Below are positions 12,170-60,955 of a DNA stretch of 64,000 nt, piece by piece. The translations under genes were made by a program, and so were the position numbers. Below the pieces are notes generated by a model. That model made no database searches. It was not told the DNA's origin and was given only the letters and a program-made list of their open reading frames with translations. Position 1 is the first letter of the stretch. The number at the start of each line of letters is the position of its first letter. Source of the DNA: Antedon mediterranea. Taxonomy: Eukaryota; Echinodermata; Crinoidea; Comatulida; Antedonidae. The DNA lies in assembly GCF_964355755.1 (NCBI RefSeq), contig NC_092675.1:31582912-31646911 (forward strand). Direction: 5' to 3'.

Positions 12170-15100
12170 ATGGAAAAGGCACAGCGTAAAACGCTTCTAC
12201 TGAACAAATCTCGCTTAGTTGGCGATATCCAAACCGAGCAGATAATTTGGGAGCTAAAACAGTTTGAAGTGTTAACACCCATACTCTTTAAAGATATTGA
12301 GCAAGAAAGTGGACGTAAAGCAAAACTCAATCGCCTTATTGATCTCATTACATCATGTGGCCCTAAATCTTTCCAAATATTTATTGAAATTTTAACAAAA
12401 CATGGATATAATGAACTAGTGGAAAGTTTAAAAAGTGATTATCAAAGATTCCGAAATGACGACGCCAGCAAAAAAAGTAAGTTAACAAAACTGAATACCT
12501 TTTTTGTGGCATTTAAATAAAAGTGTATGCATTGGTCTTATGTATTTTCTTTTATAGTTTTTTATATCCTTCAGACCGGGGGAATTATTGATGTCAATAT
12601 CATTATACATAGGCATTATGCAGTGAGTCGAAAACATATTGACACTTGATAAAGCATGAGATTTGAATTGTATATGATAAATTATGCGTTTTGTTCATTA
12701 AATTCCAATAAACCTGATTAGAAGTATCTACAGCAAATATAGATTTAACGGTAATGATACACTACCTATGGTCAAGATGTTATAATATAAATAATACAAT
12801 TCCTTAATTAATAATAATAATGCGATTCGTTAATGATGATGCAATCCGCTAAATGATAATGCAGTCCGTTAAATAGAAATAATTCAATCCGTGAATTAAT
12901 AATGCAGCCCGTTAAATAGAAATAATTCAATCCGTTAATTAATAATGCCATCGGTTAAATAATAATCTGTCAAAATAGTCCGTAAAAAATAACCCCATAA
13001 AGTAGGCCCGGTGATATCAGGATGCACTTCTAAAATGTAATGCGCCCGTAAAATAATAATACGGTTGCGCCAGGAAAATAGTCAATTATAATTAAACCGT
13101 AAATTATTCAGCTGCTACACGTATGTCATTACTTTTCCATTGTATTTTAATCTATTCTTAACATATTTTTTTCTTAACGAAATCGTTTCAACTTGTACTT
13201 CAAGAGCCCAACATGAACCAAATAGACAAAACTAATTTAAGAAGAGCGATTTCATTTACTTCATCATCTATTGAATTACGTAGACGACATTCTCATCAGC
13301 AGTTTTACGATCAGGAATTGTCACATTTTTTAAGCAAAGATAAATCTCATAATCATGCTGTTGGAGTGACAACTTGTGAATGTTTACTTTGCAAACAGAT
13401 CACATTCTGTGGTAATCCAGTCTTAGGTACAGACAATAAGAAACTTGTATATACTGTATTTTATTGAGGCTATGCTAGTACATACTATACTTTTTTTTTG
13501 TTTCTTCACAAATTTACATGTTAACAATACTATTTATCACTTTTCAAAATAAATAATAGAGTTTTGTTATTTAATTGTATTTCCAGAAACGAAACTGATT
13601 CCTATTCCACGTACATACGGTGAGGTATGTTTGAATAACCGTGAGAGTTTCATCGAAAATGTCTGGGCAGAACACATCGTACCAGAACTACGACCACCAT
13701 TGCAGCTTAGCAATCTGGATAAACAACTATTACGAACGGAGAAATCTCGTCGGAATAGATCTGAAATATTGTTTGACTTGTTGTTACAAAAAGTGGATGA
13801 GCATGGTCATAAGGCATTCTTTATGCTGCATGGTATATTGGATAGAACGTATCCTCATGTGTCCGATCTTGTTTGGAATGACCTGATGAAAATGACGGCA
13901 CCAACACCCGAGGTACACCTCCCTAGTAAGTTTCTTTACTTTATTGTGCATACAAAGTATTGATTATTATTGTTGATATAGGCATTTGTATTCACAATAC
14001 GGAGATGTTGTTTCTTTGCCAAAACTATTGTTTCACTCCGAAGACCGAATGGGTTCAATACCAAGCCACAGTAACTCAAATTGACATTAAATAAATTAAA
14101 GGATATTTTTTGGGTATAACAATAGTTATATTAAAAATTATCTGATGTGTTATACATTAATTATAGAGCATTCTCCTGCACCTCCAAATCACAACAGAGA
14201 CAACTTTATTGGAACGATTTCGGACACGGAGTATTCACAAGAACTGCAGAAAAACAAAAAGCACACAGGTCTGAAGTCTAGTCTTAATGTTATGCAACAA
14301 GAACTTCTTAACACGGGAGCTGATAGCTTGGGAAGATCAAGACAACTTGACAGAGCATCACAATTAATTGCAGAAGCAAACGGTGCAATTAAAATGCTTG
14401 AATCAAGAATTAAATGTGTTGAGCGTGAACGAGAAGACGCCCAACATTTAGAAAGAGTGGCCAATATGCAATGTAAAGACCTTAAAAAACAAATAGAAAT
14501 GCTTGAACATGAAAGCCGACAAATTCGTAAACAAGATGAAGATCACAGAAAACGTTGGGAAAACAATAAAAAATTGAAAATGGATGAGCTTCAGAAGATG
14601 AATGATGAATTGAAATCATTGGAGAATGACTTGCACAAAACACAATTAGATCAGAATCAAAAGCATGAGGAATTGATTCAAAGGAAAAGAAATCTTGATA
14701 TAATTGAGAGTAGTTTAAGCGAAAAGGACGAAAATCAACGAGATCGTTCTGCAAAATCAATGAAGAAACAACAGAACATAAAACAGCGAGACGTAGAGGT
14801 AACGAGACGCGAAGCCGATGTGATTATACGTGAAAGGGAAGTAGAGAACCGTGAGGATTCTTGTAGGAAGACAGGCCTCGAACAAAGACGTCGTTCAATG
14901 GAATTAAAAAGAAGGGAAGCAGAAGCAATTGTGCTTCAAGAGCAATATCAAATGAAGGAAGATAATCTTAATGATCAGATAAAGGAAAACAAGATGTGAG
15001 TTGTTTTTTAGGTTTTTTTTTTTAAACTATAAAAGCAGGAAAGAATTCTTCCCTGATAAAAGCTACTAAAAGGTGCTATTTCCATTTGTGAATCTCATTG

Positions 15101-17631
15101 ACTGTGTTATCATTTTTCAAATATTACTTCAACATAATTATTTCAAATTATAAGGTAAGATAAACTTTACCACCACGTTTACAACTGGGATATACATAGT
15201 GAATTACCGTATACAGACATAAATAAATCCATAGGCCTACTAGTAACATATTTATACTTGTGTGTAGGCCTATAATTTTGTACTAGAAAAACAAATACTG
15301 TAAGTTCAAAAATCAACTACCATTACGTCATTAATTTATTAAATAAAAAAAAATCTTATTATCAAAGGCAGCATAAATGATTATCATATAGTTGTAGAAT
15401 TTTCTAATTTTATTTTGTTTTATTTAAGAAAAATGTATATTTATTTACTTATCGTCGTTCGTTCTAGTGTGTAGGTGCCTTTAAAGTATAAGCAACTTGC
15501 AACGCATTATATTTAAATGGTATTAGTTTGGAATAGCATGCTACTTCACCGTCAGTCCACGTCTAGAGAACGCACTGCTTGTCTAGTCCAATCCAGTTCC
15601 TAATCCTAACTTTTTATTGTGCTTTATCCAATCGTCACTTATTGTTGCTAAATTCATAGAAAATAGTATTATTATAATATTCGAGATTTGTTTGATTTCA
15701 GAAAGCAAAGTGAAATTATGGCTCAGTTGAAAGATCTAAAAAAACAAGGAGAGAATTTAGATGAACAGAACATGGAGCAAAGTATGAAGGAGGAGCTACT
15801 AAGGGAGAAGGAAAACAGTATCGAACAACGGGAGCGGGATACTAAAGCTGCATTGCAACAGAAAACCGCGGCACTTGAAGAAGAGAAAGAACTTGTGGAA
15901 TTGGAGAGGCAGCGTTGGTACAGTGAATGGCGTCAAAAAGAACATAACATTAAACAAACAGAAGAAGAATGGAACAAAAAAACAGACGAGTTACAAGATC
16001 GAGAAAGAACATTGAGAAACATGGAAGACGAAATGAATAAAAAGAATAATGAATTAAGACAAGCACAGAAAGAATGCAAAGAGAGAACAGACGAAAATCA
16101 GAGAAAGGAAGAAGAGCTCACAATTGAGACTAAAAGATTATATGAAAAAGAACACAAGCTGAAATCTCGTAAAACAGATTTGGACAAAAGAGAGCAAGAT
16201 ATTGGTTCAATAGAACATGGCAGACGAGTGTTAAATGAAGATGTTGAACGTTTTAAAGCAGAGCAAAGAGATCGTGAAAAAGATTTCATGTTGAGATATG
16301 AAGAAATGGATACCAAATATGAACAGTTGCGAAAACAAGAAGATATGCTGATCAATATACAGATGAAACAGAGACAAAGAGAATTACTGTTACAAAAGAG
16401 GGAAAATAATAATTATATGCTCGAAGATGATCCAAGTAATACGGTACAGAATAACGTAGAAACGGTTACACGTACCTCAAGTGACAGTGGTTTGACAGAC
16501 GAGCCTATTATGTGTGAGTATACTATTGTACAAAGAGGTGATGATCAAAACTCTCCACGACGGTTTCAACCTTTTAACATTAAGGTTTCGCCAGGCTTGA
16601 CTATCTGGGGTCTAAAAACAATACTAGATAAAGAAGAGGGAATACCGACTCACTGGCAGCGGTTTTATTATGGAGGAATTCAACTTAATGATACCACAAC
16701 CCTTTCTGAAAATTCAATTGTACCCGAATCTTCGATATATTTAAAATTAGACGTGAAAGAAGGTTCAACAACTATCATTCTTAAAACTGGACAGAGAACA
16801 CGGATGATTGACGTTGACTTAAATGAAACAGTTGCTGTGACGAAGGCGCGAATATACAAGTATGAAGGTGTACCACCACATCAGCAAATATTGTTACATC
16901 GGGATGTCGTTATGGATGACGGTAACTTACTTCACGACTTTAATCTACACAAGAACTCTGCAATATCAATGAAATTAAACTACCGCATATGGGTTAGAAC
17001 TAAATCAAATACACTGATTCCCTTGGAGGTCGATGAACTTTCGACAATCAGAAATGTCAAATTTCTTTTGAGAGAAGCTGCTGGCGTTTGTGTTGATTCT
17101 CAAAAGCTAGGATTTAGAGGGAAGTTCCTAGATGATAGCCGTTCCCTCATTCACTATAAAATATGTGAGGGAAGTACAGTAGATCTTACGTGTGCGGTAA
17201 CCATCTCTCAAAAACCAGCAGGTGAAAGTTTGAAAATGGAACTAGATCCGTGTGTGACTGTTAAACAGTTAAAAGAAGAAATACGAAGAATAAAAGCAAT
17301 ACCAGTAAACAGACAAGCATTAGTAGTTCGTGATCAGCATCTACATGATGGTGATATGGTAATGGATCATTTGAAGAAGGGATCAATCATTAATCTACAT
17401 AGTGGTAATGTAATGATTGTCTCTTCATCTGGAAAGGTAATACTTAGTGATGTACAGCCATGGCATAATGTTTTGAAAGTTAAAGAGATGATTGAGCGTA
17501 AGACTGGAATAACAGTGCATATGCAACATTTGGAATATCAAGGGTCTGCCTTAGTTTCGGGCAGTTTACGACTATCGGATTTCGATATTAAAAATGGAAG
17601 TGTCTTGCAAATGAAACAAATAGAAGGTTAG
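12170..17631 (+). CDS. CARD-CARD-coiled coil-5x ubiquitin-like protein
   Basis: Five exons: 12170-12476, 13205-13426, 13587-13925, 14167-14995, 15702-17631. All are GT-AG with consistent phase, predicting 1208 residues. Residues about 9-92 form a CARD-like death fold (RLVGDIQTEQIIWEL, then CGPKSFQIFIEIL). Residues 103-177 are a linker with clustered cysteines C160, C162, C165 and C171. Residues about 194-277 are a second, more diverged CARD-like domain (ENVWAEHIVPEL, then HGHKAFFMLHGIL). Residues about 315-800 are E/K/R/Q-rich coiled coil. Residues 838-1208 hold five ubiquitin-like folds starting near 838, 922, 994, 1065 and 1136. No Gly-Gly ends any unit and the protein ends in IEG, so it is not a processed polyubiquitin. 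Inference: a cytoplasmic signalling scaffold, possibly innate immune. I recognise the domains but not the gene, and know no named protein with this order. Confidence 0.85.
12800..12985 (+). repeat. Degenerate tandem repeat in CARD-gene intron 1
   Basis: Words such as AATAATGCARYCCGTTAAAT and AGAAATAATTCAATCCGT recur imperfectly every 20 to 55 bp. The rest of intron 1 (12477-13204) shows nothing else. Confidence 0.6.
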
Positions 17632-21100: not shown

Positions 21101-21949
21101 AATATTAACAAAGACGAAAAAATGGCGATTAAAACACTGGTTTTCGTCGGAACGTTTTCGTATCCTCACTTTCTTTTCAACACACAACCAGCGTACCAAA
21201 GATTATATAGCGCCGCTATATACGGCGGCGCTATATAATCTTTGAGCGCAGCAGAGCCATATATATAAAGAGTTACGACATTGGATTATAGTCACGTGAT
21301 ATGCAGATCAAAATGTGTCAAACTTGTCTGCATTTAATGCATGTAAAGTATAGGAGCAACAAAATACTTTCAATTTTTTCTTGTATTAAAAAAAATGTAA
21401 TTGCACATTTTACGATGAAATATCGATGTGCACAGCGTACAGAAGTACTTGCGCCAAAGAATATTGCGCGCGCGTGCGCTAGTACATTATAACGTTCGAT
21501 TGATTGATTTTGGAACAAAACATCCCATAACTACGTCCTATTAATAACAATTATGTAATATTTTCAATTCATAATGCATGCTTTGATGACGAAATAAAAT
21601 AATGAAGTGTCGTGGATATATTTGTTAATATATTGAATAGGGTATGAACAATATTAAAATAATAAAGGCAAATTATTACAAATGAAATGATGAACGAGTC
21701 TCTGAAAGTTTGTGTCAAAAACACACAGAGAGCCATATACTGTATAAAAAGAGGGGTGCATTTGTGTGTTTTTTGTATTGGTTCATGATTGATTTTTTTT
21801 ATTTTTTTTTTTTATTTATTCAGGTTTATACAATAAAAAACATGCAGCCCGAAGGCTGAAATTGTTGATTTACAAAAATATATATATAAATATATGGAAA
21901 CTACGAAAGCCTATTAGGGCCAACAAAAAAATAATATTGCTTTCACAAA

Positions 21950-22465
21950 TTCGAAATAACGAATTATTAATTCGTTTTTTCGAATTATTAATTCGTTATT
22001 TCGAATTTATTTAAGTAATTTGAAATTTCGAATTAATAATTCGAAATTTCGAATTATTAATTCGAAATTTCGAATTATTTATTTCGTTATTTCAAATTAT
22101 TAATTCGAAATTTCGAATTATTAATTCGAAATTTCGAATTATTAATTCGAAATTTCGAATTAGTAATTCGTTATTTCGAATTCATAATTCGAAATTTCGA
22201 ATTAGTAATTCGTTATTTCGAATTCATAATTCGAAATTTCGAATTAGTAATTCGAAATTTCGAATTAGTAATTCGTTATTTCGAATTAATAATTCGAAAT
22301 TTCGAATTAGTAATTCGTTATTTCGAATTAATAATTCGAAATTTCGAATTAGTAATTCGTTATTTCGAATTAATAATTCGAAATTTCAAATTAGTAATTC
22401 GTTAATTCAAATTTTTAATTCGTTATTTCGAATTAATAATTCGAAATTTCGAATTAATAATTCGA
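21950..22465. repeat. TTCGAA/TTATTAATTCG array, left subterminal region of transposon copy 1
   Basis: About 500 bp of alternating words TTCGAAATTTCGAATTA and GTAATTCGTTATTTCGAA, each self-complementary. The array is mirrored at 27350-27802. Confidence 0.9.
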
Positions 22466-22530
22466 CCTCTGCCCTTTCTAATGACATCCCAACCATCCCG
22501 GATTACTTTAGCTAATGCAATCTGGTCACC

Positions 22531-23899
22531 ATGCGTCCTGAAAACCATTGGATTAGATTATATTTCAATCGTAGCTTAAATTATCAAGAGATTATTGAAA
22601 TGTTAGCAGAAGATCATGATATTTTGATAAGTAAACGAACATTAAAGCGAAGGCTGAAAAAAATGTGCCTTAGTCGAAGAAAACGGCATTCTGACGAACT
22701 GGAAGTCGCTGCGTTCATTGAAAGCCAATTACAGACGTCAGGGATGCTACATGGGTACAGGTGGATGCACATTCGTTGCACACAAAATGGGTTAAACATA
22801 GATAAAGAGACGGTCAGAATAATTTTAAACCTTCTTGACCCAGAGGGTGTCGAAGCAAGAAGAAGACGACGACTACACAGAAGAATTTATCATGTAGGCC
22901 CTACCTGGCCCAAACTATATCTGGCATATCGACTCGTACGACAAACTTAAGCCATACGGCATTTGTATAAATGGCTGTATAGACGGATTCTCTAGACACA
23001 TAATATGGCTAGAAGCTTACTTTACTAGCAGCAATCCAAAAGTTATAGCCGGCTATTACGTAAATTCTGTTCGCCAAAAATGGGTTGCCCAAAGTCTATT
23101 AGAACAGATTTCGGAACTGAAAATTCTATTGTTGGTCCAATGCAACAGTTTCTTTGTAATGAGAACAGCAGTTTTATACAAGGAACAAGTCAGCATAATC
23201 AACGAATTGAGAGTTGGTGGGGCATTCTCAGAAAACACTTTACTCAGTTTTGGATGGACGCTTTTAAACAACAAAAGAATGACGGTAGATATGATGGAGG
23301 TCTTATAGACAAATCTTTATTACAATTTTGTTTTATGAAAATTATCCAGGTAAGCAGTACAGCAATTACATTGTGTGCTATGCATTATAGTCCCCAAGTA
23401 CGACAATTATAATAATAATTTGGGCTTTCGCAACAATTTGAAAAGCAAACAATATTAGCCTAGAATTAAATCACTCCTCTTTTATTTACGATATTGTTTT
23501 TTTTTTCACGGTCTAAACTGTCATTAAACTATTTGTTTTTACTGTACTGTATTATATTTGCCTTTTTTAAAGGATGAACTGGACACGGTTGCAAATGAGT
23601 GGAATGCCCATCGCATCTCAAAATCGAGAAATAGCCATGGTCCGTTTGGACGCCCGACATTGATGTACAATGTACCATACTTATTCGGGGGACAAGAGTG
23701 TATTATTCCCGTTGATGTGGCTAAAGTTGAAGTTTGTGAAAGTGAATCCATCTTCAAAAGCCAGATTCCATGAGATAAGGACGTGTTCGACTTATGTTCC
23801 ATATTCTTGGAAAAAAGGCAGCTATCGATGCCGAAAACATGTGATGAAGGTTTGCAGTTATACAGCAGTCTTAGAAATATGTTTCTTGACGTCATCTGA
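22531..23899 (+). pseudogene. rve/DDE integrase (transposase), broken copy in transposon 1
   Basis: Two exons: 22531-23349 and 23573-23899, joined by CAG|GTAAGC and TTAAAG|GAT. The sibling copies show the DDE core: HIDSYD, RTDFGTEN and QRIESWW. The N-terminal part is helix-turn-helix-like (ISKRTLKRRLKKMC). Damage: a 7-bp insertion near 22896 (GTAGGCCCTACC versus GTACC in siblings), a 5-A instead of 6-A run near 23076, and a TGA in exon 2 at 23771-23773. An inactive copy. Confidence 0.85.
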
Positions 23900-24572
23900 T
23901 CAAATGCCACAGCAAGCACGTGATATCACATTATCATGTTATAAATCGTTTTTTTTATTAATTAATTGTCGCTGTGATATTATTTCCAATACAAAGTTAG
24001 AATTGCAACGAACACAATGTAATGAATACAATATAAACAATTATATTTATTTATATTATGTTCAGTTGGTGATGATCAGACAGAATTGTGTTATGTAGCT
24101 GTACAATACAGTAAAACAGATGTAATTTAACAACATTTTGTTTATTGAAACTTTAATAACAGTATTTTATTTCTGAAACAATTACAAAAATGTTGGCTAC
24201 TAAAATTTGATCATAATTTAAAGATATATTGTCCCCCTGAAAAAATATTTTTTTTTAATTGTTTTGTTGAATATGTTATTTTAATGTCACATAATAGTTT
24301 TTCACTTTCACAAAAAAATGGGTCTGAAAAAAAATTATTTACCTATTAAGAAAACTGTAATTTAAAGCAAATAAATGGTCAAATTGGCTGGAAGACAATG
24401 AGTTTTGGGGTAATTTAACTGTTTAACTGTTTTGTCTTTCTATAGGTGAAATAATTTTTTTTTCTCGTTTTTTTTTCTTATGGAAACAACTTCATTAAAA
24501 CTGCAAAATGGCCTATTCAAAGTCAGATTTAAAAAATCTTTATTCTTCATGATTTTGGGGGACAATACATCT

Positions 24573-24823
24573 TTAAAGTTTTCCAAAACCCTTGCCATTT
24601 ATGATGGCTTCCTCCATTAGAGTTGTGAATTCCAATGGATCGTCATATCCACGGGGGAGGTGTAAATTCAACCCACATGTACTGGCTGTCGGGTGACCTC
24701 TCATCTTTCGCTCCTTACTAAAAAAATTTATATGTATCTGGTTGCTAAAACCAAGAGGGGGAATTGAGTCAGCACCAGTAACAAATGTTAGGAAGTCTCC
24801 AAGGGATGTCTTGGTCTTTTTAT
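24573..24823 (-). pseudogene. HECT E3 ligase C-lobe exon inside transposon 1
   Basis: After acceptor TTTTAG the minus strand reads KTSLGDFLTFVTGADSIPPL, then HPTASTCGLNLHLPRG, and ends GFGKL-stop. The FVTG segment and the TASTC cysteine motif are hallmarks of the HECT C-lobe, where that cysteine accepts ubiquitin. It resembles the many G2E3-like HECT copies of aquatic animals (family knowledge). The N-lobe and E2-binding part are missing; upstream sequence is gypsy pol, so this is a truncated passenger or a remnant of an element gene. Confidence 0.75.
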
Positions 24824-25152
24824 CTAAAATGCATAAAAATAAAAATGTTAAACATTATGAAATAAAAAATGTATACTTTTTTCGTCTACCATTTACCCTT
24901 TCACCGCTCTTATTAGCATACTTTCGTTTTGGTACAAGGAATTACAAATAGGGTATAGCGGTATAGTTCTTCAAGGTAAAGTTTGTTCGTGAATACACAC
25001 AACCTTGTTTCTCTCTCGAAGGGCTATATTATATAACTGTAAGGAAATACGGTATTGTATCGTTTCGTTTCGTTTCGAGCCCTGGGGGTACCTAATTTTA
25101 CTTTGGATATTCATTCTCAGCCCGAAGGATTGGGGGGGGGGGGGGTGGTATC

Positions 25153-26420
25153 TCAAGGTAGACAAGGAGGTCTGCCGTAGAGTAGATAAAACGGTGAGTA
25201 CCCTGTTGAATCATGGCGAGTGCAGTTATAAGCATGCACAACTTTATTGAGTGATTCCTTCCAGTTGTCCTTCTGGTTTTCGGACAAGGTTCGTAACATT
25301 CCAAGCAACGTTCGATTTAACCTTTCCACTTGGCCATTGCCTTGAGGGTGATAAGGTGGGGTACGTGAATGTTAGATCCCAGAGTAAGCTTCAAGATTGG
25401 TAAATAAGTGATTTTCAAATTCCCGACCCTGGTCATGGTGCAATGTCTTTGGAAATCAAAATCGCAGTATAAAGTCATTGAAGATTAAGTTGGCTGCAGT
25501 TTTACCGCTCTTATTCCTTGTCGGATATGCTTGCGCAAATCGAGTAAAGTGGTCCATAATTACTAAAATATACTCATATCCGCCTTTGCTCTTTTTCAAG
25601 TGTACATAATCGATAGAAACAAGTTCAAAGGGTTGAGTCGTAATGATATTGACTAAAGGAGCTCTGGTTATACGAACTGGTTTCTTCTGGATCAGACATC
25701 GGCAGATGTGATGTAATCCTCTATTTCTGCTTCCATATGTGGCCAATAAAACCCCTCTCGTGCCATATGTACAACTCGTTCTGGACCAAGTTGTCCCATG
25801 TTACTATGCAATTCTGTGTATACTAACTGTTTTGTATTTTTCTGGAAGGACGATCTGAGAACGTGTTGTGGTGCAGCGTCGGAGAATACCATCATGTCCA
25901 ACTTGCAGCTTGTTTCCACTCATGCATGATTGACGTTTTTGTTTTGGTCTCGTTCTTTCTTTCTTTTCGAGTTGGCCAGCGCCCCTTGGCCTTATACTTT
26001 AGGACTCTATTAATGGCTGGATCTTGTGTTAGAACTGTCTTTATATCTTCTGGGCAGAGGTTATTAATTAAGGGTCTTAAGGGTTTCTCAATATCTGGAT
26101 CTATGATCTGACCATGTAGTTAAGCCTTCTGCCTAAGTATTCACACCATGGACTGCCGCTTGCATGACCTCTTCAGATATTTCTTCCGAACACAACTTTT
26201 CCAATTGTTTTAGATCAAGCGGGATTCTTGACAAGGTGTCGGCATCCTGATGTATTCGACCTGGTCTATATTTTATCTGAATGATAATCCGCTAATTCTG
26301 CTACCCAGCGGTGTCCCGTAGCATTAAGTTTGGCCGTGGTCAATACATAGGTCAATGGATTATTGTCAGTATATATGTAACAGGTTCGTACTATATAGCG
26401 TCGTAGCTTTATCGCGTAGT
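25153..26420 (-). pseudogene. Ty3/gypsy pol fragment (RNase H end to integrase) in transposon 1
   Basis: The minus strand reads RNase H end (YTDNNPLTYVLTTAK, GHRW), then the H2C2-type integrase N-terminal segment ([14 protein letters not shown]...GFYWPHM), then the integrase core ([27 protein letters not shown]), then the C-terminal [15 protein letters not shown]. Frame breaks occur near 26275 and elsewhere. No LTRs, reverse transcriptase or protease are attached. Its upstream edge fuses abruptly to the integrase intron at about 26420. Confidence 0.85.
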
Positions 26421-26470
26421 ACTTGGGGACTATAATGCATAGCACACAATGTAATTGCTGTACTGCTTAC

Positions 26471-27283
26471 CTGGATAATTTTCATAAAACAAAATTGTAA
26501 TAAAGATTTGTCTATAAGACCTCCATCATATCTACCGTCATTCTTTTGTTGTTTAAAGGCGTCCATCCAAAACTGAGTAAAGTGTTTTCTGAGAATGCCC
26601 CACCAACTCTCAATTCGTTGATTATGCTGACTTGTTCCTTGTATAAAACTGCTGTTCTCATTACAAAGAAATTGTTGCATTGGACCAACAATAGAATTTT
26701 CAGTTCCGAAATCTGTTCTAATAGACTTTGGACAACCCATTTTTTGGCGAACAGAATTTACGTAATAGCCGGCTTTAACTTTTGGATTGCTGCTAGTAAA
26801 GTAAGCTTCTAGCCATATTATGTGTCTAGAGAATCCGTCTATACAGCCATTTATACAAATGCCGTATGGCTTAAGTTTGTCGTACGAGTCGATATGCCAG
26901 ATATAGTTTGGGCCAGGTACATGATAAATTCTTCTGTGTAGTCGTCGTCTTCTTCTTGCTTCGACACCCTCTGGGTCAAGAAGGTTTAAAATTATTCTGA
27001 CCGTCTCTTTATCTATGTTTAACCCATTTTGTGTGCAACGAATGTGCATCCACCTGTACCCATGTAGCATCCCTGACGTCTGTAATTGACTTTCAATGAA
27101 CGCAGCGACTTCCAGTTCGTCAGAATGCCGTTTTCTTCGACTAAGGCACATTTTTTTCAGCCTTCGCTTTAATATTCGTTTACTTATCAAAATGTCATGA
27201 TCTTCTGCTAACATTTCAATAATCTCTTGATAATTTAAGCTACGATTGAAATATAATCTAATCCAATGGTTTTCAGGACGCAT
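26471..27283 (-). CDS. rve/DDE integrase exon 1, open, minus-strand copy in transposon 1
   Basis: An uninterrupted 813-bp exon (271 codons) from ATG to the conserved donor CAG|GTAAGC. It contains all three putative catalytic positions (HIDSYD, RTDFGTEN, QRIESWW). About 50 bp into the intron the sequence changes to gypsy pol, so exon 2 is missing. Reading on through the donor adds only about 34 residues before a stop. It is the mirror image of the + copy at 22531 and more than 95% identical by eye. Confidence 0.75.
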
Positions 27284-27349
27284 GGTGACCAGATTGCATT
27301 AGCTAAAGTAATCCGGGATGGTTGGGATGTCATTAGAAAGGGCAGAGGT

Positions 27350-27802
27350 CGAATTATTAATTCGAAATTTCGAATTATTAATTCGAAATAACGAATTAAA
27401 AATTTGAATTAACGAATTACTAATTTGAAATTTCGAATTACTAATTTGAAATTTCGAATTATTAATTCGAAATAACGAATTACTAATTCGAAATTTCGAA
27501 TTATTAATTCGAAATAACGAATTACTAATTCGAAATTTCGAATTACTAATTCGAAATTTCGAATTATGAATTCGAAATAACGAATTACTAATTCGAAATT
27601 TCGAATTAATAATTCGAAATTTCGAATTAATAATTCGAAATTTCGAATTAATAATTTGAAATAACGAAATAAATAATTCGAAATTTCGAATTAATAATTC
27701 GAAATTTCGAATTATTAATTCGAAATTTCAAATTACTTAAATAAATTCGAAATAACGAATTAATAATTCGAAAAAACGAATTAATAATTCGTTATTTCGA
27801 AT
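27350..27802. repeat. TTCGAA array, right subterminal region of transposon copy 1
   Basis: Reverse-complement counterpart of 21950-22465, made of TTCGAAATTTCGAATTA words. Confidence 0.9.
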
Positions 27803-27956
27803 TTGTGAAAGCAATATTATTTTGTTGTTGGCCCTAATAGGCTTTCGTAGGAAACAGAAACATTTAAAAAAAAACAAAAATTTATACAAAACATTAAAAA
27901 ATTTGAAAAAATCTACGAAAGCCTATTAGGGCCAACAAAAAAAAATTTTGCTTTCA

Positions 27957-28225
27957 CAAATTCGAAATAACGAATTACTAATTCGAAATTTCGAATTAGT
28001 AATTCGAAATTTCGAATTAGTAATTCGTTATTTCGAATTAATAATTCGAAATTTCGAATTAGTAATTCGTTATTTCGAATTAATAATTCGAAATTTCGAA
28101 TTAGTAATTCGTTATTTCGAATTAATAATTCGAAATTTCAAATTAGTAATTCGAAATTTCAAATTAGTAATTCGTTAATTCAAATTTTTAATTCGTTATT
28201 TCGAATTAATAATTCGAAATTTTTT
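27957..28225. repeat. TTCGAA array, left subterminal region of transposon copy 2
   Basis: Shorter than the matching array of copy 1, showing that repeat number is variable. Confidence 0.9.
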
Positions 28226-28294
28226 AAGACCTCTGCCCTTTCTAATGACATCCCAACCATCCCGGATTACTTTAGCTAATGCAATCTGGTCACC

Positions 28295-29655
28295 ATGCGT
28301 CCTGAAAACCATTGGATTAGATTATATTTCAATCGTAGCTTAAATTATCAAGAGATTATTGAAATGTTAGCAGAAGATCATGATATTTTGATAAGTAAAC
28401 GAACATTAAAGCGAAGGCTGAAAAAAATGTGCCTTAGTCGAAGAAAACGGCATTCTGACGAACTGGAAGTCGCTGCGTTCATTGAAAGCCAATTACAGAC
28501 GTCAGGGATGCTACATGGGTACAGGTGGATGCACATTCGTTGCACACAAAATGGGTTAAACATAGATAAAGAGACGGTCAGAATAATTTTAAACCTTCTT
28601 GACCCAGAGGGTGTCGAAGCAAGAAGAAGACGACGACTACACAGAAGAATTTATCATGTACCTGGCCCAAACTATATCTGGCATATCGACTCGTACGACA
28701 AACTTAAGCCATACGGCATTTGTATAAATGGCTGTATAGACGGATTCTCTAGACACATAATATGGCTAGAAGCTTACTTTACTAGCAGCAATCCAAAAGT
28801 TATAGCCGGCTATTACGTAAATTCTGTTCGCCAAAAATGGGTTGCCCAAAGTCTATTAGAACAGATTTCGGAACTGAAAATTCTATTGTTGGTCCAATGC
28901 AACAATTTCTTTGTAATGAGAACAGCAGTTTTATACAAGGAACAAGTCAGCATAATCAACGAATTGAGAGTTGGTGGGGCATTCTCAGAAAACACTTTAC
29001 TCAGTTTTGGATGGACGCTTTTAAACAACAAAAGAATGACGGTAGATATGATGGAGGTCTTATAGACAAATCTTTATTACAATTTTGTTTTATGAAAATT
29101 ATCCAGGTAAGCAGTACAGCAATTACATTGTGTGCTATGCATTATAGTCCCCAAGTACGACAATTATAATAATAATTTGGGCTTTCGCAACAATTTGAAA
29201 AGCAAACAATATTAGCCTAGAATTAAATCACTCCTCTTTTATTTACGATATTGTTTTTTTTTCACGGTCTAAACTGTCATTAAACTATTTGTTTTTACTG
29301 TACTGTATTATATTTGCCTTTTTTAAAGGATGAACTGGACACGGTTGCAAATGAGTGGAATGCCCATCGCATCTCAAAATCGAGAAATAGCCATGGTCCG
29401 TTTGGACGCCCGACATTGATGTACAATGTACCATACTTATTCGGGGGACAAGAGTGTATTATTCCCGTTGATGTGGCTAAAGTTGAAGTTTGTGAAAGTG
29501 AATCCATCTTCAAAAGCCAGATTCCATGCGATAAGGACGTGTTCGACTTATGTTCCATATTCTTGGAAAAAAGGCAGCTGTCGATGCCGAAAACATGTGA
29601 TGAAGGTTTGCAGTTATACAGCAGTCTTAGAAATATGTTTCTTGACGTCATCTGA
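28295..29655 (+). pseudogene. rve/DDE integrase, near-intact two-exon copy in transposon 2
   Basis: Exon 1 is 28295-29106 and exon 2 is 29329-29655. It lacks the 7-bp insertion and the exon 2 stop seen in copy 1. Its only visible break is a 5-A run near 28836, where the minus-strand copies have 6 A, which shifts the frame before the second catalytic aspartate. Exon 2 encodes DELDTVANEWNAHRI and ends FLDVI-stop. This is the best guide to the full-length transposase, about 380 residues. Confidence 0.85.
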
Positions 29656-30324
29656 TCAAATGCCACAGCAAGCACGTGATATCACATTATCATGTTATAA
29701 ATCGTTTTTTTTATTAATTAATTGTCGCTGTGATATTATTTCCAATACAAAGTTAGAATTGCAACGAACACAATGTAATGAATACAATATAAACAATTAT
29801 ATTTATTTATATTATGTTCAGTTGGTGATGATCAGACAGAATTGTGTTATGTAGCTGTACAATACAGTAAAACAGATGTAATTTAACAACATTTTGTTTA
29901 TTGAAACTTTAATAACAGTATTTTATTTCTGAAACAATTACAAAAATGTTGGCTACTAAAATTTGATCATAATTTAAAGATATATTGTCCCCCTGAAAAA
30001 ATATTTTTTTTAATTGTTTTGTTGAATATGTTATTTTAATGTCACATAATAGTTTTTCACTTTCACAAAAAAATGGGTCTGAAAAAAAATTATTTACCTA
30101 AGAAAACTGTAATTTAAAGCAAATAAATGGTCAAATTGGCTGGAAGACAATGAGTTTTGGGGTAATTTAACTGTTTAACTGTTTTGTCTTTCTATAGGTG
30201 AAATAATTTTTTTTTCTCGTTTTTTTTTCTTATGGAAACAACTTCATTAAAACTGCAAAATGGCCTATTCAAAGTCAGATTTAAAAAATCTTTATTCTTC
30301 ATGATTTTGGGGGACAATACATCT

Positions 30325-30569
30325 TTAAAGTTTTCCAAAACCCTTGCCATTTATGATGGCTTCCTCCATTAGAGTTGTGAATTCCAATGGATCGCCATAT
30401 CCACGGGGGAGGTGTAAATCCAACCCACATGTACTGGCTGTCGGGTGACCTCTCATCTTTCGCTCCTTACTAAAAAAATTTATATGTATCTGGTTGCTAA
30501 AACCAAGAGGGGGAATTGAGTCAGCACCAGTAACAAATGTTAGGAAGTCTCCAAGGGATGTCTTTTTAT
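30325..30569 (-). pseudogene. HECT E3 ligase C-lobe exon inside transposon 2
   Basis: Same exon as at 24573-24823 but lacking 6 bp near its 5' end (in frame). It keeps FVTGADSIPPLGF and HPTASTCGL. Frame and cysteine are preserved in both transposon copies. Confidence 0.75.
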
Positions 30570-30888
30570 CTAAAATGCATAAAAATAAAAATGTTAAACA
30601 TTATGAAATAAAAAATGTATACTTTTTTCGTCTACCATTTACCCTTTCACCGCTCTTATTAGCATACTTTCGTTTTGGTACAAGGAATTACAAATAGGGT
30701 ATAGCGGTATAGTTCTTCAATGTAAAGTTTGTTCGTGAATACACACAACCTTGTTTCTCTCTCGAAGGGCTATATTATATAACTGTAAGGAAATACGGTA
30801 TTGTATCGTTTCGTTTCGAGCCCTGGGGGTACCTAATTTTACTTTGGATATTCATTCTCAGCCCGAAGGATTGGGGGGGGGGGGTATC

Positions 30889-32155
30889 TCAAGGTAGACA
30901 AGGAGGTCTGCCGTAGAGTAGATAAAACGGTGAGTACCCTGTTGAATCATGGCGAGTGCAGTTATAAGCATGCACAACTTTATTGAGTGATTCCTTCCGG
31001 TTGTCCTTCTGGTTTTCGGACAAGGTTCGTAACATTCGAAGCAACGTTCGATTTAACCTTTCCACTTGGCCATTGCCTTGAGGGTGATAAGGTGGGGTAC
31101 GTGAATGTTAGATCCCAGAGTAAGCTTCAAGATTGGTAAATAAGTGATTTTCAAATTCCCGACCCTGGTCATGGTGCAATGTCTTTGGAAATCAAAATCG
31201 CAGTATAAAGTCATTGAAGATTAAGTTGGCTGCAGTTTTACCGCTCTTATTCCTTGTCGGATATGCTTGCGCAAATCGAGTAAAGTGGTCCATAATTACT
31301 AAAATATACTCATATCCGCCTTTGCTCTTTTTCAAGTGTACATAATCGATAGAAACAAGTTCAAAGGGTTGAGTCGTAATGATATTGACTAAAGGAGCTC
31401 TGGTTATACGAACTGGTTTCTTCTGGATCAGACATCGGCAGATGTGATGTAATCCTCTATTTCTGCTTCCATATGTGGCCAATAAAACCCCTCTCGTGCC
31501 ATATGTACAACTCGTTCTGGACCAAGTTGTCCCATGTTACTATGCAATTCTGTGTATACTAACTGTTTGTATTTTTCTGGAAGGACGATCTGAGAACGTG
31601 TTGTGGTGCAGCGTCGGAGAATACCATCATGTCCAACTTGCAGCTTGTTTCCACTCATGCATGATTGACGTTTTTGTTTTGGTCTCGTTCTTTCTTTCTT
31701 TTCGAGTTGGCCAGCGCCCCTTGGCCTTATACTTTAGGACTCTATTAATGGCTGGATCTTGTGTTAGAACTGTCTTTATATCTTCTGGGCAGAGGTTATT
31801 AATTAAGGGTCTTAAGGGTTTCTCAATATCTGGATCTATGATCTGACCATGTAGTTAAGCCTTCTGCCTAAGCATTCACACCATGGACTGCCGCTTGCAT
31901 GACCTCTTCAGATATTTCTTCCGAACACAACTTTTCCAATTGTTTTAGATCAAGCGGGATTCCTGACAAGGTGTCGGCATCCTGATGTATTCGACCTGGT
32001 CTATATTTTATCTGAATGATAATCCGCTAATTCTGCTACCCAGCGGTGTCCCGTAGCATTAAGTTTGGCCGTGGTCAATACATAGGTCAATGGATTATTG
32101 TCAGTATATATGTAACAGGTTCGTACTATATAGCGTCGTAGCTTTATCGCGTAGT
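30889..32155 (-). pseudogene. Ty3/gypsy pol fragment in transposon 2
   Basis: Same truncated RNase H to integrase segment, with the same fusion point to the integrase intron, as in copy 1. The capture therefore preceded the spread of this transposon. Frame breaks are present. Confidence 0.85.
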
Positions 32156-32205
32156 ACTTGGGGACTATAATGCATAGCACACAATGTAATTGCTGTACTG
32201 CTTAC

Positions 32206-33018
32206 CTGGATAATTTTCATAAAACAAAATTGTAATAAAGATTTGTCTATAAGACCTCCATCATATCTACCGTCATTCTTTTGTTGTTTAAAGGCGTCCA
32301 TCCAAAACTGAGTAAAGTGTTTTCTGAGAATGCCCCACCAACTCTCAATTCGTTGATTATGCTGACTTGTTCCTTGTATAAAACTGCTGTTCTCATTACA
32401 AAGAAATTGTTGCATTGGACCAACAATAGAATTTTCAGTTCCGAAATCTGTTCTAATAGACTTTGGACAACCCATTTTTTGGCGAACAGAATTTACGTAA
32501 TAGCCGGCTTTAACTTTTGGATTGCTGCTAGTAAAGTAAGCTTCTAGCCATATTATGTGTCTAGAGAATCCGTCTATACAGCCATTTATACAAATGCCGT
32601 ATGGCTTAAGTTTGTCGTACGAGTCGATATGCCAGATATAGTTTGGGCCAGGTACATGATAAATTCTTCTGTGTAGTCGTCGTCTTCTTCTTGCTTCGAC
32701 ACCCTCTGGGTCAAGAAGGTTTAAAATTATTCTGACCGTCTCTTTATCTATGTTTAACCCATTTTGTGTGCAACGAATGTGCATCCACCTGTACCCATGT
32801 AGCATCCCTGACGTCTGTAATTGACTTTCAATGAACGCAGCGACTTCCAGTTCGTCAGAATGCCGTTTTCTTCGACTAAGGCACATTTTTTTCAGCCTTC
32901 GATTTAATGTTCGTTTACTTATCAAAATATCATGATCTTCTGCTAACATTTCAATAATCTCTTGATAATTTAAGCTACGATTGAAATATAATCTAATCCA
33001 ATGGTTTTCAGGACGCAT
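32206..33018 (-). CDS. rve/DDE integrase exon 1, open, minus-strand copy in transposon 2
   Basis: An 813-bp open exon with the same properties as 26471-27283: DDE motifs present, donor present, exon 2 absent. It differs by very few residues, for example near TLNRRLKK. Confidence 0.75.
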
Positions 33019-33084
33019 GGTGACCAGATTGCATTAGCTAAAGTAATCCGGGATGGTTGGGATGTCATTAGAAAGGGCAGAGGT

Positions 33085-33540
33085 CGAATTATTAATTCGA
33101 AATTTCGAATTATTAATTCGAAATAACGAATTAAAAATTTGAATTAACGAATTACTAATTTGAAATTTCGAATTACTAATTTGAAATTTCGAATTATTAA
33201 TTCGAAATAACGAATTACTAATTCGAAATTTCGAATTAATAATTCGAAATAACGAATTACTAATTCGAAATTTCGAATTACTAATTCGAAATTTCGAATT
33301 ATGAATTCGAAATAACGAATTACTAATTCGAAATTTCGAATTAATAATTCGAAATTTCGAATTAATAATTCGAAATTTCGAATTAATAATTTGAAATAAC
33401 GAAATAAATAATTCGAAATTTCGAATTAATAATTCGAAATTTCGAATTATTAATTCGAAATTTCAAATTACTTAAATAAATTCGAAATAACGAATTAATA
33501 ATTCGAAAAAACGAATTAATAATTCGTTATTTCGAATTTG
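33085..33540. repeat. TTCGAA array, right subterminal region of transposon copy 2
   Basis: Reverse-complement counterpart of 27957-28225 and nearly identical to 27350-27802. Confidence 0.9.
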
Positions 33541-34789
33541 TGAAAGCAATATTATTTTTTTGTTGGCCCTAATAGGCTTTCGTATAAATCAGTTAAAAAA
33601 AAATAAAATTACTTATTATAGACACAATATATATATGTTACCAAATTAATACGCTCTGTTTGAGCGTACTCTCTGTGTAATATACTACCGTTGGATATAT
33701 TCCACAACAGCATAGCGTCGCGTTCCGCCTGGCTGCACACCGTAAACAGAGATGGCCGGTGTAAGATTTAAATGTGTCCGGTGTTTGAAAGTGTCCACTG
33801 GACAATTTTCAGCATTGAATAGTGTAATACCAGCTGTTGAAAATGGCTGCAACCACCCGGGCAGCTTTCATCGATAAAAAAGTAGGACCATCGACATCGA
33901 CATCATATTAACCCCGTAAAAACTAGGGCACTGGACGGTCACCAACTCCCGTTAGGGTAATTATAATTCCTTAGAATACCAACTTGAATCGCAAAATATC
34001 AAGTCGATTGAAATAAATATTACTATTATTATATCTGGAGACATATAGTCTAATCAAATTAAATTGTTTGTTTTTGATTGAGTATATACAACCTGTTGTC
34101 AATTTGAAGTAAATCTGACAACTTGAAAAAATATATAGCCTACCGGTACTGTATTATTATTTCTAGGGAATGAATATCACTAAATCATATAGGCATAGGG
34201 CCTACCTATTTTCGTTCTCTCGAAATATTATTTCATTGGAATTCGAATTACTAATTCGCGAGAGAACGAAATAATTTCCCTCGAAATTATTTCGTTCTCT
34301 CGATCATTCCTTGTCTCGAAGTAGTAATTCATTTTTTATATTGTTCAGTTCTTGAAATCTTATTTTGTTCTCCCTAAATATATTTGTTCCCTCAAAATAT
34401 TTTTCAGTTCTCAAAATATTATTTTGTAATATTCATAATACTGTTACTAATTTAATAATATTAACTGATAACAAAAGTGCTTTAAACAAGTAAGTTCGTC
34501 ATTGTTAAAGTGAGTTCTTTTTCATTATATTTTTTTTCACAGATGCCTGATTTTTGGTTTTATTTAATAAAACATTGAATTGATTAGTCACAATATTTTA
34601 TTTGTTTCTAGAGATTTTACATTATTTATTTATTTATCTAAAATACATTTGAAAAATATTGTTGATGCATATTACCAAAAAATATTTATTTTTTTATATT
34701 TTATATTGCAAAATAAACACCTTAATTGCGCATCAAAATTATTCGTTCACTCAAGGGTATTTCGGTTTTTTGTATTTTTCGAATAATCT

Positions 34790-49104: not shown

Positions 49105-52100
49105 TAGCTGCTCCAGTGGACCAAATTTAGCACTAGTGGAGCGCAGTGATAAAATAGAAATAAGTCACTAATTTTAATATCTTTTCGTATGTTAATACAC
49201 TGTGCTCAAGTGGACACAATTTGGCGCCAGTGAGGAGCACAGTGATATAAAATAGAAATAAGTCACTGAATTTTAATATCTTTTCGTATGTTAATAACAC
49301 TGTGCTCAAGTGGACCTAATTTGGAGCCAGGGGAGCACAATGATATAAAATAGAAATAAATCACTGAATTTTAATATCTTTTTTGTATGTTAATACACTG
49401 TGCTCAAGTGGACCCAATTTTGAGCCAGGGGAGCACAATGATATAAAATAGAAATAAATCACTGAATTTTAATATCTTTTTTGTATGTTAATACACTGTG
49501 CTCAAGTGGACCTAATTTGGCGCCAGTGGAGCACAGTGATATGAAATAGAAATAAGTCACTGAATTTTAATATCTTTTCGTATCTGTGCTTAAGTGGACC
49601 CAATTTGGAGCCAGTGGAAAACAGTGATATAAAATAGAAATAAGTCACTGAATGTTAATATATTTTCGTATGTTAATACACTGTGCTCAAGTGGACCTAA
49701 TTTGGCGCCAGTGGAGCACAGTGATATGAAATAGAAATAAGTCACTGAATTTTAATATCTTTTCGTATGTTATTACACTGTGCTCAAGTGGACTCAATTT
49801 GGAGGCAGGGGAGCACAGTGATATAAAATAGAAATAAGTCACTGAATTTTAATATCTTTTCGTATGTTAATACACTGTGCTTAAGTGGACCCAATTTGGA
49901 GCCAGTGGAGCACAGTGATATAAAATAGAAATAAGTCACTGAATTTTAATATCTTTTCGTATGTTAATACACTGTGCTCAAGTGGACCCAATTTGGAGCC
50001 AGGAGAGCACAGTGATATAAAATAGAAATAAGTCACTGAATTTTAATATATTTTCGTATGTTAATACACTGTGCTCAAGTGGACCTAATTTGGCGCCAGT
50101 GGAGCACAGTGATATGAAATAGAAATAAGTCACTGAATTTTAATATCTTTTTGTATGTTATTACACTGTGCTCAAGTGGACCCAATTTGGAGCCAGGGGA
50201 GCACAGTGATATAAAATAGAAATAAGTCACTGAATGTTAATATCTTTTCGTATGTTAATACACTGTGCTCAAGAAGTGGACCCAATTTGGAGCCAGTGTA
50301 AAACAGTGATAAAAAATAGAAATAAGTCACTGAATTTTAATATCTTTTTGTATGTTAATACACTGTGCTCAAGTAGACCCAATTTGGAGCCAGGAGAGCA
50401 CAGTGATATAAAATAGAAATAAGTCACTGAATGTTAATATATTTTCGTATGTTAATACACTGTGCTCAAGTGGACCTAATTTGGCGCCAGTGGAGCACAG
50501 TGATATGAAATAGAAATAAGTCACTAAATTTTAATATCTTTTCGTATGTTATTACACTGTGCTCAAGTGGACTCAATTTGGAGCCAGGGGAGCACAGTGA
50601 TATAAAATAGAAATAAGTCACTGAATGTTAATATCTTTTCGTATGTTAATACACTGTGCTCAAGAAGTGGACCCAATTTGGAGCCAGTGGAAAACAGTGA
50701 TAAAAAATAGAAATAAGTCACTGAATGTTAATATCTTTTCGTATGTTAATACACTGTGCTCAAGTGGACCCAATTTGGAGCCAGTGGAGCACAGTGATAT
50801 AAATAGAAATAAGTCACTGAATTTTAATATCTTTTCGTATGTTAATACACTGTGCTCAAGTGGACCCAATTTGGAGCCAGTGGAGCACAGTGATATAAAA
50901 TAGAAAAAAGTCACTGAATTTTAATATCTTTTCGTATGTTAATACACTGTGCTCAAGTGGACCCAATTTGGCGCCAGGAGAGCACAGTGATATAAAATAG
51001 AAATAAGTCATTGAATGTTAATATATTTTCGTATGTTAATACACTGTGCTCAAGTGGACCCAATTTGGAGCCAGGGGAGCACAGTGATATAAAATAGAAA
51101 TAAGTCACTGAATGTTAATATCTTTTCGTATGTTAATACACTGTGCTCAAGAAGTGGACCCAATTTGGAGCCAGTGTAAAACAGTGATAAAAAATAGAAA
51201 TAAGTCACTGAATTTTAATATCTTTTTGTATGTTAATACACTGTGCTCAAGTAGACCCAATTTGGAGCCAGGAGAGCACAGTGATATAAAATAGAAATAA
51301 GTCACTGAATGTTAATATATTTTCGTATGTTAATACACTGTGCTCAAGTGGACCTAATTTGGCGCCAGTGGAGCACAGTGATATGAAATAGAAATAAGTC
51401 ACTAAATTTTAATATCTTTTCGTATGTTATTACACTGTGCTCAAGTGGACTCAATTTGGAGCCAGGGGAGCACAGTGATATAAAATAGAAATAAGTCACT
51501 GAATGTTAATATCTTTTCGTATGTTAATACACTGTGCTCAAGAAGTGGACCCAATTTGGAGCCAGTGGAAAACAGTGATAAAAAATAGAAATAAGTCACT
51601 GAATGTTAATATCTTTTCGTATGTTAATACACTGTGCTCAAGTGGACCCAATTTGGAGCCAGTGGAGCACAGTGATATAAATAGAAATAAGTCACTGAAT
51701 TTTAATATCTTTTCGTATGTTAATACACTGTGCTCAAGTGGACCCAATTTGGAGCCAGTGGAGCACAGTGATATAAAATAGAAAAAAGTCACTGAATTTT
51801 AATATCTTTTCGTATGTTAATACACTGTGCTCAAGTGGACCCAATTTGGCGCCAGGAGAGCACAGTGATATAAAATAGAAATAAGTCATTGAATGTTAAT
51901 ATATTTTCGTATGTTAATACACTGTGCTCAAGTGGACCCAATTTGGAGCCAGGGGAGCACAGTGATATAAAATAGAAATAAGTCACTGAATGTTAATATC
52001 TTTTCGTATGTTAATACACTGTGCTCAAGAAGTGGACCCAATTTGGAGCCAGTGTAAAACAGTGATAAAAAATAGAAATAAGTCACTGAATTTTAATATC

Positions 52101-53140
52101 TTTTTGTATGTTAATACACTGTGCTCAAGTAGACCCAATTTGGAGCCAGGAGAGCACAGTGATATAAAATAGAAATAAGTCACTGAATGTTAATATATTT
52201 TCGTATGTTAATACACTGTGCTCAAGTGGACCTAATTTGGCGCCAGTGGAGCACAGTGATATGAAATAGAAATAAGTCACTAAATTTTAATATCTTTTCG
52301 TATGTTATTACACTGTGCTCAAGTGGACTCAATTTGGAGCCAGGGGAGCACAGTGATATAAAATAGAAATAAGTCACTGAATGTTAATATCTTTTCGTAT
52401 GTTAATACACTGTGCTCAAGAAGTGGACCCAATTTGGAGCCAGTGGAAAACAGTGATAAAAAATAGAAATAAGTCACTGAATGTTAATATCTTTTCGTAT
52501 GTTAATACACTGTGCTCAAGTGGACCCAATTTGGAGCCAGTGGAGCACAGTGATATAAATAGAAATAAGTCACTGAATTTTAATATCTTTTCGTATGTTA
52601 ATACACTGTGCTCAAGTGGACCCAATTTGGAGCCAGTGGAGCACAGTGATATAAAATAGAAAAAAGTCACTGAATTTTAATATCTTTTCGTATGTTAATA
52701 CACTGTGCTCAAGTGGACCCAATTTGGCGCCAGGAGAGCACAGTGATATAAAATAGAAATAAGTCATTGAATGTTAATATATTTTCGTATGTTAATACAC
52801 TGTGCTCAAGTGGACCTAATTTGGCGCCAGTGGAGCACAGTGATATAAAATGGAAAAAGTCACTGAATTTTAATATCTTTTCGTATTTAATATACACTAT
52901 GCTCAAGTGGACCCGATTTGGAGCCAGGGGAGCACTGTGATATAAAAATAGAAATAAGTCACTGAATTTTAATATCTTTTCGTATGTTAATACACTGTGC
53001 TTACGTGGACCCAATTTGGCGCGCGCGCCAGTGAGCACAGTAATATAAAATAGAAAAAAGTCACTAAATTTTAATATCTTTTCGTATGTTAATACACTGT
53101 GCTCAAGTGGACCCAATTTGGCACCAATGGGAGCACAGGG
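49105..53140 (+). repeat. 97-bp satellite, about 41 units, with 878-bp higher-order repeats
   Basis: The unit contains GTCACTGAATTTTAATATCT, TTTCGTATGTTAATA, CACTGTGCTCAAGTGGACCC, AATTTGGMGCCAGTGG and AGCACAGTGATATAAAATAG. CACTGTGCTC and GAGCACAGTG within each unit are self-complementary. Nine-unit blocks of 878 bp starting near 50234, 51112 and 51990 are essentially identical, a true higher-order structure. Open frames repeated at these spacings are by-products. Confidence 0.95.
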
Positions 53141-53760
53141 AAATAGTCACATTCAAAAACATCGGGAAAAAATACTGGAATTTAAAAATATTTCAAACTT
53201 GGTATATACTGTATGTTCAATATCGGTTACTCCATCCGTAAACCAAAAGAAAAAATAGTTTCAAGCCACATCAGTGATTTTAATAAATTGCGTTCGCTTA
53301 AGATAATACTTATGAAAAAACGTACAATTCCGACACATAGGCCTATTATGTTAAACTCTAATAATGATTTTGACAATAAAAAAACGGTTAGGAATTCGAC
53401 TTTTTCCCTGTAAATTGAGCAACTTAAATTAAAAATATACCAAGAAATATATATTGAAATCAAGGAGTATTTTTTTGTTACAAAATAAATGTTCGTATGT
53501 TAATACTGTGCTCCAGTGGATCCAATTTGGCGCCAGTGGAGCACAGGGAAATAGTCACATACAAAAACATCAAGAAGAAATACTTCTGGATTTCAAAAAT
53601 ATTTCAAACTTGGTACGTATATATAAGTTCAATATCGGTTACTCCATCCGTGATGCAAAAGAAAAATTTGTTTTAAGCCACATTAGTGATTTTAATAACT
53701 TGTGTTTGTCTAAGATAAATACTTATGAAAGAACATACAATTCCAACACATAAACTTAGC
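53128..53760 (+). repeat. Diverged tandem duplication after the satellite
   Basis: The segments 53128-53340 and 53545-53753 share GGGAAATAGTCACAT, TATTTCAAACTTGGTA, TCAATATCGGTTACTCCATC and AGTGATTTTAATAA. The second copy is preceded by one more satellite-like unit at 53490-53545. Confidence 0.75.
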
Positions 53761-60610: not shown

Positions 60611-60955
60611 GCTTACCTGGATAAACCAACATAAGCCTCTCTCTCCGACGAGAGGTAAACATTACGAAAAGAAGAACATTAATAACATTAATTTTTCCCC
60701 ACCCCCGTCGGATAATGGATCAGTCCGCCACCAGTACGCCCTCAAGTGAGACACACCCACTTATCATCGTTATCATTTCTTTTCGTAACGTCGTTGTGTA
60801 CGTACGTCTTTTTCTGAACACATTCCTGGAATTCCTGAGGAATTTGCGATAAAGACTTTTATACTGTAGACTGGAAGAGAAGAATAGAGCAAGAAAACGA
60901 AGCTAAGTGTAGTAGATCGTTATCTTGTGGTTGGATACGTTTAGAATCGTTACCC

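Follow-up and report, generated by a model that had tools for sequence, protein, structure and literature searches.

The window, a stretch of 64,000 nucleotides of Antedon mediterranea DNA, sits close to the end of a 31.7-Mb contig in an assembly of 354 Mb. It contains a predicted gene of five exons on the forward strand, the spliced frame of which is open from an ATG at 12170 to a stop codon at 17629-17631 and specifies a product of 1,208 amino acid residues. The splice donors are, in order, GTAAGT, GTACAG, GTAAGT and GTGAGT; every intron ends in an AG acceptor, and the intron phases are 1, 1, 1 and 2. The original prediction of five exons in consistent phase is exact: with consensus splice sites, they form a single open frame of 1,208 codons. 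The predicted protein consists of a caspase recruitment domain (CARD1), a Cys-containing linker, a second such domain (CARD2), a helical region of approximately 500 residues and five tandem ubiquitin-like domains (UBLs). The exons and UBLs, with the evidence for each, are as follows.

12170..12476, + strand: exon 1, with the start codon, CARD1 (residues about 1-95) and a phase-1 donor; PF00619, caspase-9 CARD match, frame and splice sites.
13205..13426, + strand: exon 2, a 74-residue linker with CxCxxCx5C (13375-13413) and several histidines; open phase-1/phase-1 exon.
13587..13925, + strand: exon 3, CARD2 (residues about 188-275); CARD HMM from the same genome against shuffles, CARD9-ranking profile, weak AF2/Foldseek support.
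14167..14995, + strand: exon 4, a Pro-rich start, then the first half of the charged helical/coiled-coil region; composition and 3.5-residue periodicity.
15702..17631, + strand: exon 5, the second half of the helical region, a short Ser/Thr/Asp hinge, five UBLs and the stop codon; 654-codon open frame.
16510..16764, + strand: UBL1 (residues 836-920); PF00240, 41.4 bits.
16765..16983, + strand: UBL2 (residues 921-993); PF00240, 40.9 bits.
16984..17196, + strand: UBL3 (residues 994-1064), the closest to ubiquitin (39% identity); PF00240, 52.1 bits.
17197..17406, + strand: UBL4 (residues 1065-1134); PF00240, 30.9 bits.
17407..17628, + strand: UBL5 (residues 1135-1208), C-terminus ...MKQIEG; PF00240, 37.4 bits.

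Upstream lies a Utp21/WDR36-like gene, which apparently ends near 11276, some 0.9 kb before the CARD gene; a promoter, and any exon further 5′, must thus fit into at most about 0.9 kb. Searches of the genome with each exon found no second copy, the matches being ordinary polyubiquitin genes and other UBLs, so a paralogue elsewhere in the genome was rejected; exon 4 has no other copy in the genome. The CARD-UBL gene is single copy. A candidate second CARD-UBL gene at C1:36.219 Mb was likewise rejected, no CARD being recognised in the upstream ORFs when these were inspected by eye; the locus itself (L078:540-1358, − strand) is a 272-codon ORF of about three divergent UBLs in which the Gly-Gly end is missing.

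Elsewhere in the window, positions 21900-33600 contain a near-identical direct duplication of about 5.7 kb (25831-26130 and 31566-31865 are 100% identical, as are other segments). The duplicated elements carry rva_4 integrase-core ORFs in both orientations and are flanked by 21-bp tandem repeats (AATTCGAAATTTCGAATTATT); this is likely a recently duplicated mobile element. A 97-bp unit forms a 4-kb tandem array at 49109-53145, with higher-order periods of 194 and 391 bp. A 569-codon ORF at 60839-62548, with a local GC content of 0.52 versus about 0.33 and no Pfam match, is possibly a gag-like gene of a retroelement.

Pfam analysis of the full protein returned ubiquitin-family matches only, and that of its exons returned CARD. 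CARD1 scores 35.2 bits against PF00619 (Pfam cut-off 23.9) and falls below the cut-off of Pfam CARD_2. Its PDB match is the CARD of caspase-9 (E = 2.2e-4), in an alignment beginning at the first methionine of CARD1, and this extra N-terminal CARD is classed as caspase-9/CRADD-type. CARD2 alone reaches 15.4 bits against PF00619, under the cut-off of 23.9. An HMM built from CARD exons found elsewhere in this genome, with both CARD1 and CARD2 left out, nevertheless gave 22.7 bits for CARD2 and 43.0 bits for CARD1; the best shuffled controls attained 10.7 bits (2,000 shuffles of CARD2) and 15.7 bits (2,000 shuffles of CARD1), such that CARD2 exceeds all 4,000. A three-member profile, in which CARD2 was combined with L010 and L011, the two CARDs nearest to it in the genome, ranked CARD9 first in the PDB (E = 6.9e-9), with RAIDD nearly equal (8e-9), CARD11 next, and Apaf-1 and caspase-9 behind these. 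By itself, CARD2 shows only a modest affinity for CARD9 (z = 4.9, versus 3.2 for RAIDD and 0.7 for caspase-9). Modelled by AF2 from its single sequence, CARD2 folds into six helices at low confidence (pLDDT 51), which lends weak support; Foldseek searches with this model retrieved mostly CARDs, CARD9 on top, with no E value below 0.1. Exon 2 gave no significant Pfam domain. The CARD-like domain, cysteine-bearing linker and second CARD-like domain of the original prediction are thus all recovered, the last below the Pfam cut-off yet above every shuffle. Its likening of the pair to the tandem CARDs of RIG-I-like receptors gains little support: against the two RIG-I-like receptor (RLR) CARDs tested from this genome both domains score z = 1.6-3.0, compared with 9.8-10.8 for the best non-RLR CARDs, and the 74-residue exon plus flanks separates them. 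On these scores, a clear likeness to the two tested CARDs of RLR type is seen for neither domain.

Residues of approximately 309-805 are almost devoid of proline, and over most of this length 50-60% are E, K, R, Q or D. This agrees with the predicted coiled coil of about 480 residues, with the qualification that a significant 3.5-residue period is found only near residues 365-448 and 645-728, much of the region having no clear heptad signal. The term "coiled coil" is fair, although some stretches may instead form a single charged helix.

The whole protein matches PF00240 with E = 1.5e-50 over five stretches, and each UBL taken singly exceeds the cut-off of 25.4 bits. The unit ends are DVKEG, LNY, TCA, HSG and KQIEG for UBL1 to UBL5, and none carries Gly-Gly, precisely as had been predicted. 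The UBLs share 27-39% identity with ubiquitin and 21-28% with one another; Smith-Waterman scores are 84-121 against ubiquitin, no more than 86 against seven other UBLs of the genome and no more than 71 against each other. For every one of the five, ubiquitin outscores all seven of these genomic UBLs. Since ubiquitin matches each unit better than the neighbouring units or the other UBLs compared do, the tail most likely descends from a polyubiquitin gene, and the simplest history would be that a polyubiquitin array was fused and its units then diverged independently.

The recognition surface has fared differently from the core. Across the five UBLs, 60 of 65 core positions are hydrophobic, while none of the 20 positions of the Leu8/Ile44/His68/Val70 patch is identical to ubiquitin. 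Around Leu8 the alignment of UBL2 and UBL4 is gapped and uncertain; at Ile44, His68 and Val70 all five UBLs have other residues, and Phe4 of ubiquitin is kept in none. The fold is apparently under selection, with the standard recognition face gone. AF2, run on the single sequence of the array, gave an uninformative model (pLDDT 31.5), and the β-grasp fold consequently rests on sequence similarity.

Several other loci of this genome contain ubiquitin, RLR or CARD sequences. On C4 at about 35.517 Mb (L077:3497-4066, − strand), a decayed tandem ubiquitin ORF with a frameshifted second unit lies between the N-terminal and helicase exons of an RLR gene on the same strand. A UBL-RLR fusion beside the RLR C-terminal domain at C4:35.504 Mb was rejected, since the ubiquitin ORF is frameshifted, looks decayed and sits inside the RLR gene. 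Two divergent ubiquitin ORFs (L060 and L061; C4, 35.571 and 35.647 Mb), ending in LVLRYRGG and LVLRYRSG, share a 160-kb stretch with two RLR C-terminal domains. Small groups of diverged UBL exons occur at about 24.2 Mb of C1 and 1.83 Mb of C5 (L062-L064, L067, L068 and L071); most end in LRLRGG and resemble an expansion of ISG15-like conjugatable modifiers. At 24.35 Mb of C9 (L080:742-1579), a CARD exon is followed by a death-domain-like exon in a CRADD/RAIDD-like arrangement. Downstream of the CARD exon L010 (L079:4808-6980; C6, 31.275 Mb), long ORFs in two frames arise from a short tandem DNA repeat.

The explanation that we favor, with about an even chance of being correct, is an uncharacterised CARD-coiled-coil adaptor with a CARD9/CARMA-like core, an extra CARD and a scaffold tail derived from polyubiquitin. 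CARD2 and the coiled coil together appear to resemble the CARD-CC core of the CARD9/CARMA proteins. Counting against this reading are the Pfam score of CARD2, below the cut-off, and its modest affinity for CARD9; the fact that the profile that placed CARD9 first also includes L010 and L011, the latter a CRADD-like CARD; the missing heptad signal in much of the helical region; and the single CARD and lack of UBLs of the canonical family members. In vertebrates, CARD-CC proteins oligomerise through their coiled coils and nucleate BCL10 filaments. By analogy with CARD9/CARMA, it is plausible that oligomerisation of the coiled coil nucleates CARD filaments here: the coiled coil would cluster the protein, and the CARDs, once clustered, would seed the filament of a CARD partner acting downstream. 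The UBL tail would offer dedicated partners a rigid, multivalent scaffold on which to dock, or would serve in autoinhibition, and would not be a general polyubiquitin mimic; a role as docking scaffold or regulator is more likely than one as a polyubiquitin signal. Because the ubiquitin-recognition surfaces have been lost, the protein looks like an immune-type adaptor related to CARD9/CARMA rather than a self-made polyubiquitin signal, an immune function being presumed. CARD-CC proteins are ancient in bilaterians, the MAGUK domains having been gained in jawed vertebrates (PMC5978004). In this genome a NEMO-type CC2-LZ match is present, and no MALT1 Ig domain scored above the cut-off, a point against this reading that does not in itself show absence.

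If expressed as modeled, the protein would unite in one chain the two halves of innate-immune signalling, the assembly of CARDs and scaffolding of the ubiquitin type. An animal would have fused a polyubiquitin-derived array to a CARD-coiled-coil adaptor, the ubiquitin recognition surface then being lost, and this loss after fusion would make the protein a natural experiment on the function of a polyubiquitin-shaped scaffold that the ordinary readers of ubiquitin can no longer bind. In the collection of papers searched, none described tandem UBLs, a CARD domain and a coiled coil together.

Among the alternatives, it is unlikely, though the least so, that the UBL tail works in trans, in the RLR/MAVS pathway of the genome, as the two UBLs of OASL act on RIG-I. 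RLR C-terminal domains and RLR-type CARDs do exist in the genome, a CARD_2 exon at C4:1.8525 Mb continues into a Gln/Ser/Pro-rich MAVS-like tail, and the UBLs of OASL enhance RIG-I by polyubiquitin mimicry (PMC6019448). Against this, no genetic or sequence link was found from the CARD-UBL gene to the RLR genes, the ubiquitin surface is lost in its UBLs, and OASL carries two UBLs on an OAS domain with no CARD.

Quite improbable is the mechanism originally put forward, in which the array serves as a non-cleavable polyubiquitin built into the protein, whose own tandem CARDs it binds so as to drive their assembly without a ubiquitin ligase. Its premise stands insofar as the units score highest against ubiquitin and lack Gly-Gly ends; free K63 chains activate the CARDs of RIG-I (PMC6652118), and the CARD of NOD1 binds ubiquitin (PMC4134136). 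The mechanism is itself little supported. NMR places the major contact of the NOD1 CARD on the Leu8/Ile44/His68/Val70 patch and a minor contact around Phe4 (PMC4134136), whereas all five UBLs lack the Ile44 patch and none keeps Phe4. CARD1 (1-87) and CARD2 (92-173) of RIG-I are adjacent (PMC6652118), but the two CARDs described here are not, nor does either clearly resemble the RLR CARDs tested. The idea would require CARD and UBL to meet through a face other than the standard one; a protease-resistant polyubiquitin surrogate that organises its own CARDs through surfaces other than Ile44, bypassing ubiquitin ligases, would be a slightly more doubtful version still.

Just as improbable as the original mechanism is that the UBLs form a Rad23-like tail docking to the proteasome or p97, or act as an autoinhibitory cap controlling how stable the CARD adaptor is. 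The NCBIfam Rad23 model does match, at 59.8 bits against a cut-off of 207.3, through UBL similarity alone; Pfam found no UBA domain in the protein, and the Ile44-type patch, which proteasome receptors commonly bind, is lost. Very unlikely is a misjoining of two neighboring genes, CARD-linker-CARD (exons 1-3) and coiled-coil-UBL (exons 4-5), as although the frame of exon 3 continues to a stop at 13961, an in-frame ATG precedes exon 4 near 14145 and intron 3 has one AATAAA, the two exons are just 241 bases apart with a consensus donor and acceptor in matching phase, and the DNA is so AT-rich that AATAAA is common.

The CARD9/CARMA-related adaptor that we favor can finally be compared with known systems. 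Canonical CARD-CC proteins are not known to carry more than one CARD or any UBLs. Like that family (CARD9, CARD10, CARD11 and CARD14), the protein has a long coiled coil directly after a CARD, and CARD9 ranked first by the profile of that CARD and its two nearest genomic relatives, with RAIDD almost level; unlike it, there is a second, N-terminal CARD, and five UBLs replace the CARD9 tail or the MAGUK module. With OASL it shares C-terminal tandem UBLs without conjugation ends in a presumed immune protein (PMC6019448), yet OASL has an OAS-like domain, two UBLs and neither CARD nor coiled coil, whereas here there are CARDs, a coiled coil and five UBLs, and Pfam found no OAS-like domain. Two N-terminal CARDs are also a property of RIG-I and MDA5; here, however, a long Cys linker separates them, they are not clearly RLR-like, and neither a DExD/H helicase nor a C-terminal RNA-binding domain was found in the protein by Pfam. 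The NOD1 CARD with ubiquitin (PDB 4jqw) is a published case of CARD-ubiquitin binding, but it involves real ubiquitin in trans, mainly through the Ile44 patch that these UBLs lack. By comparison with polyubiquitin itself, the array is head-to-tail within a single exon and ubiquitin is the closest relative of each unit, but the units are only 27-39% identical to ubiquitin and have neither the Gly-Gly nor the Ile44 patch.
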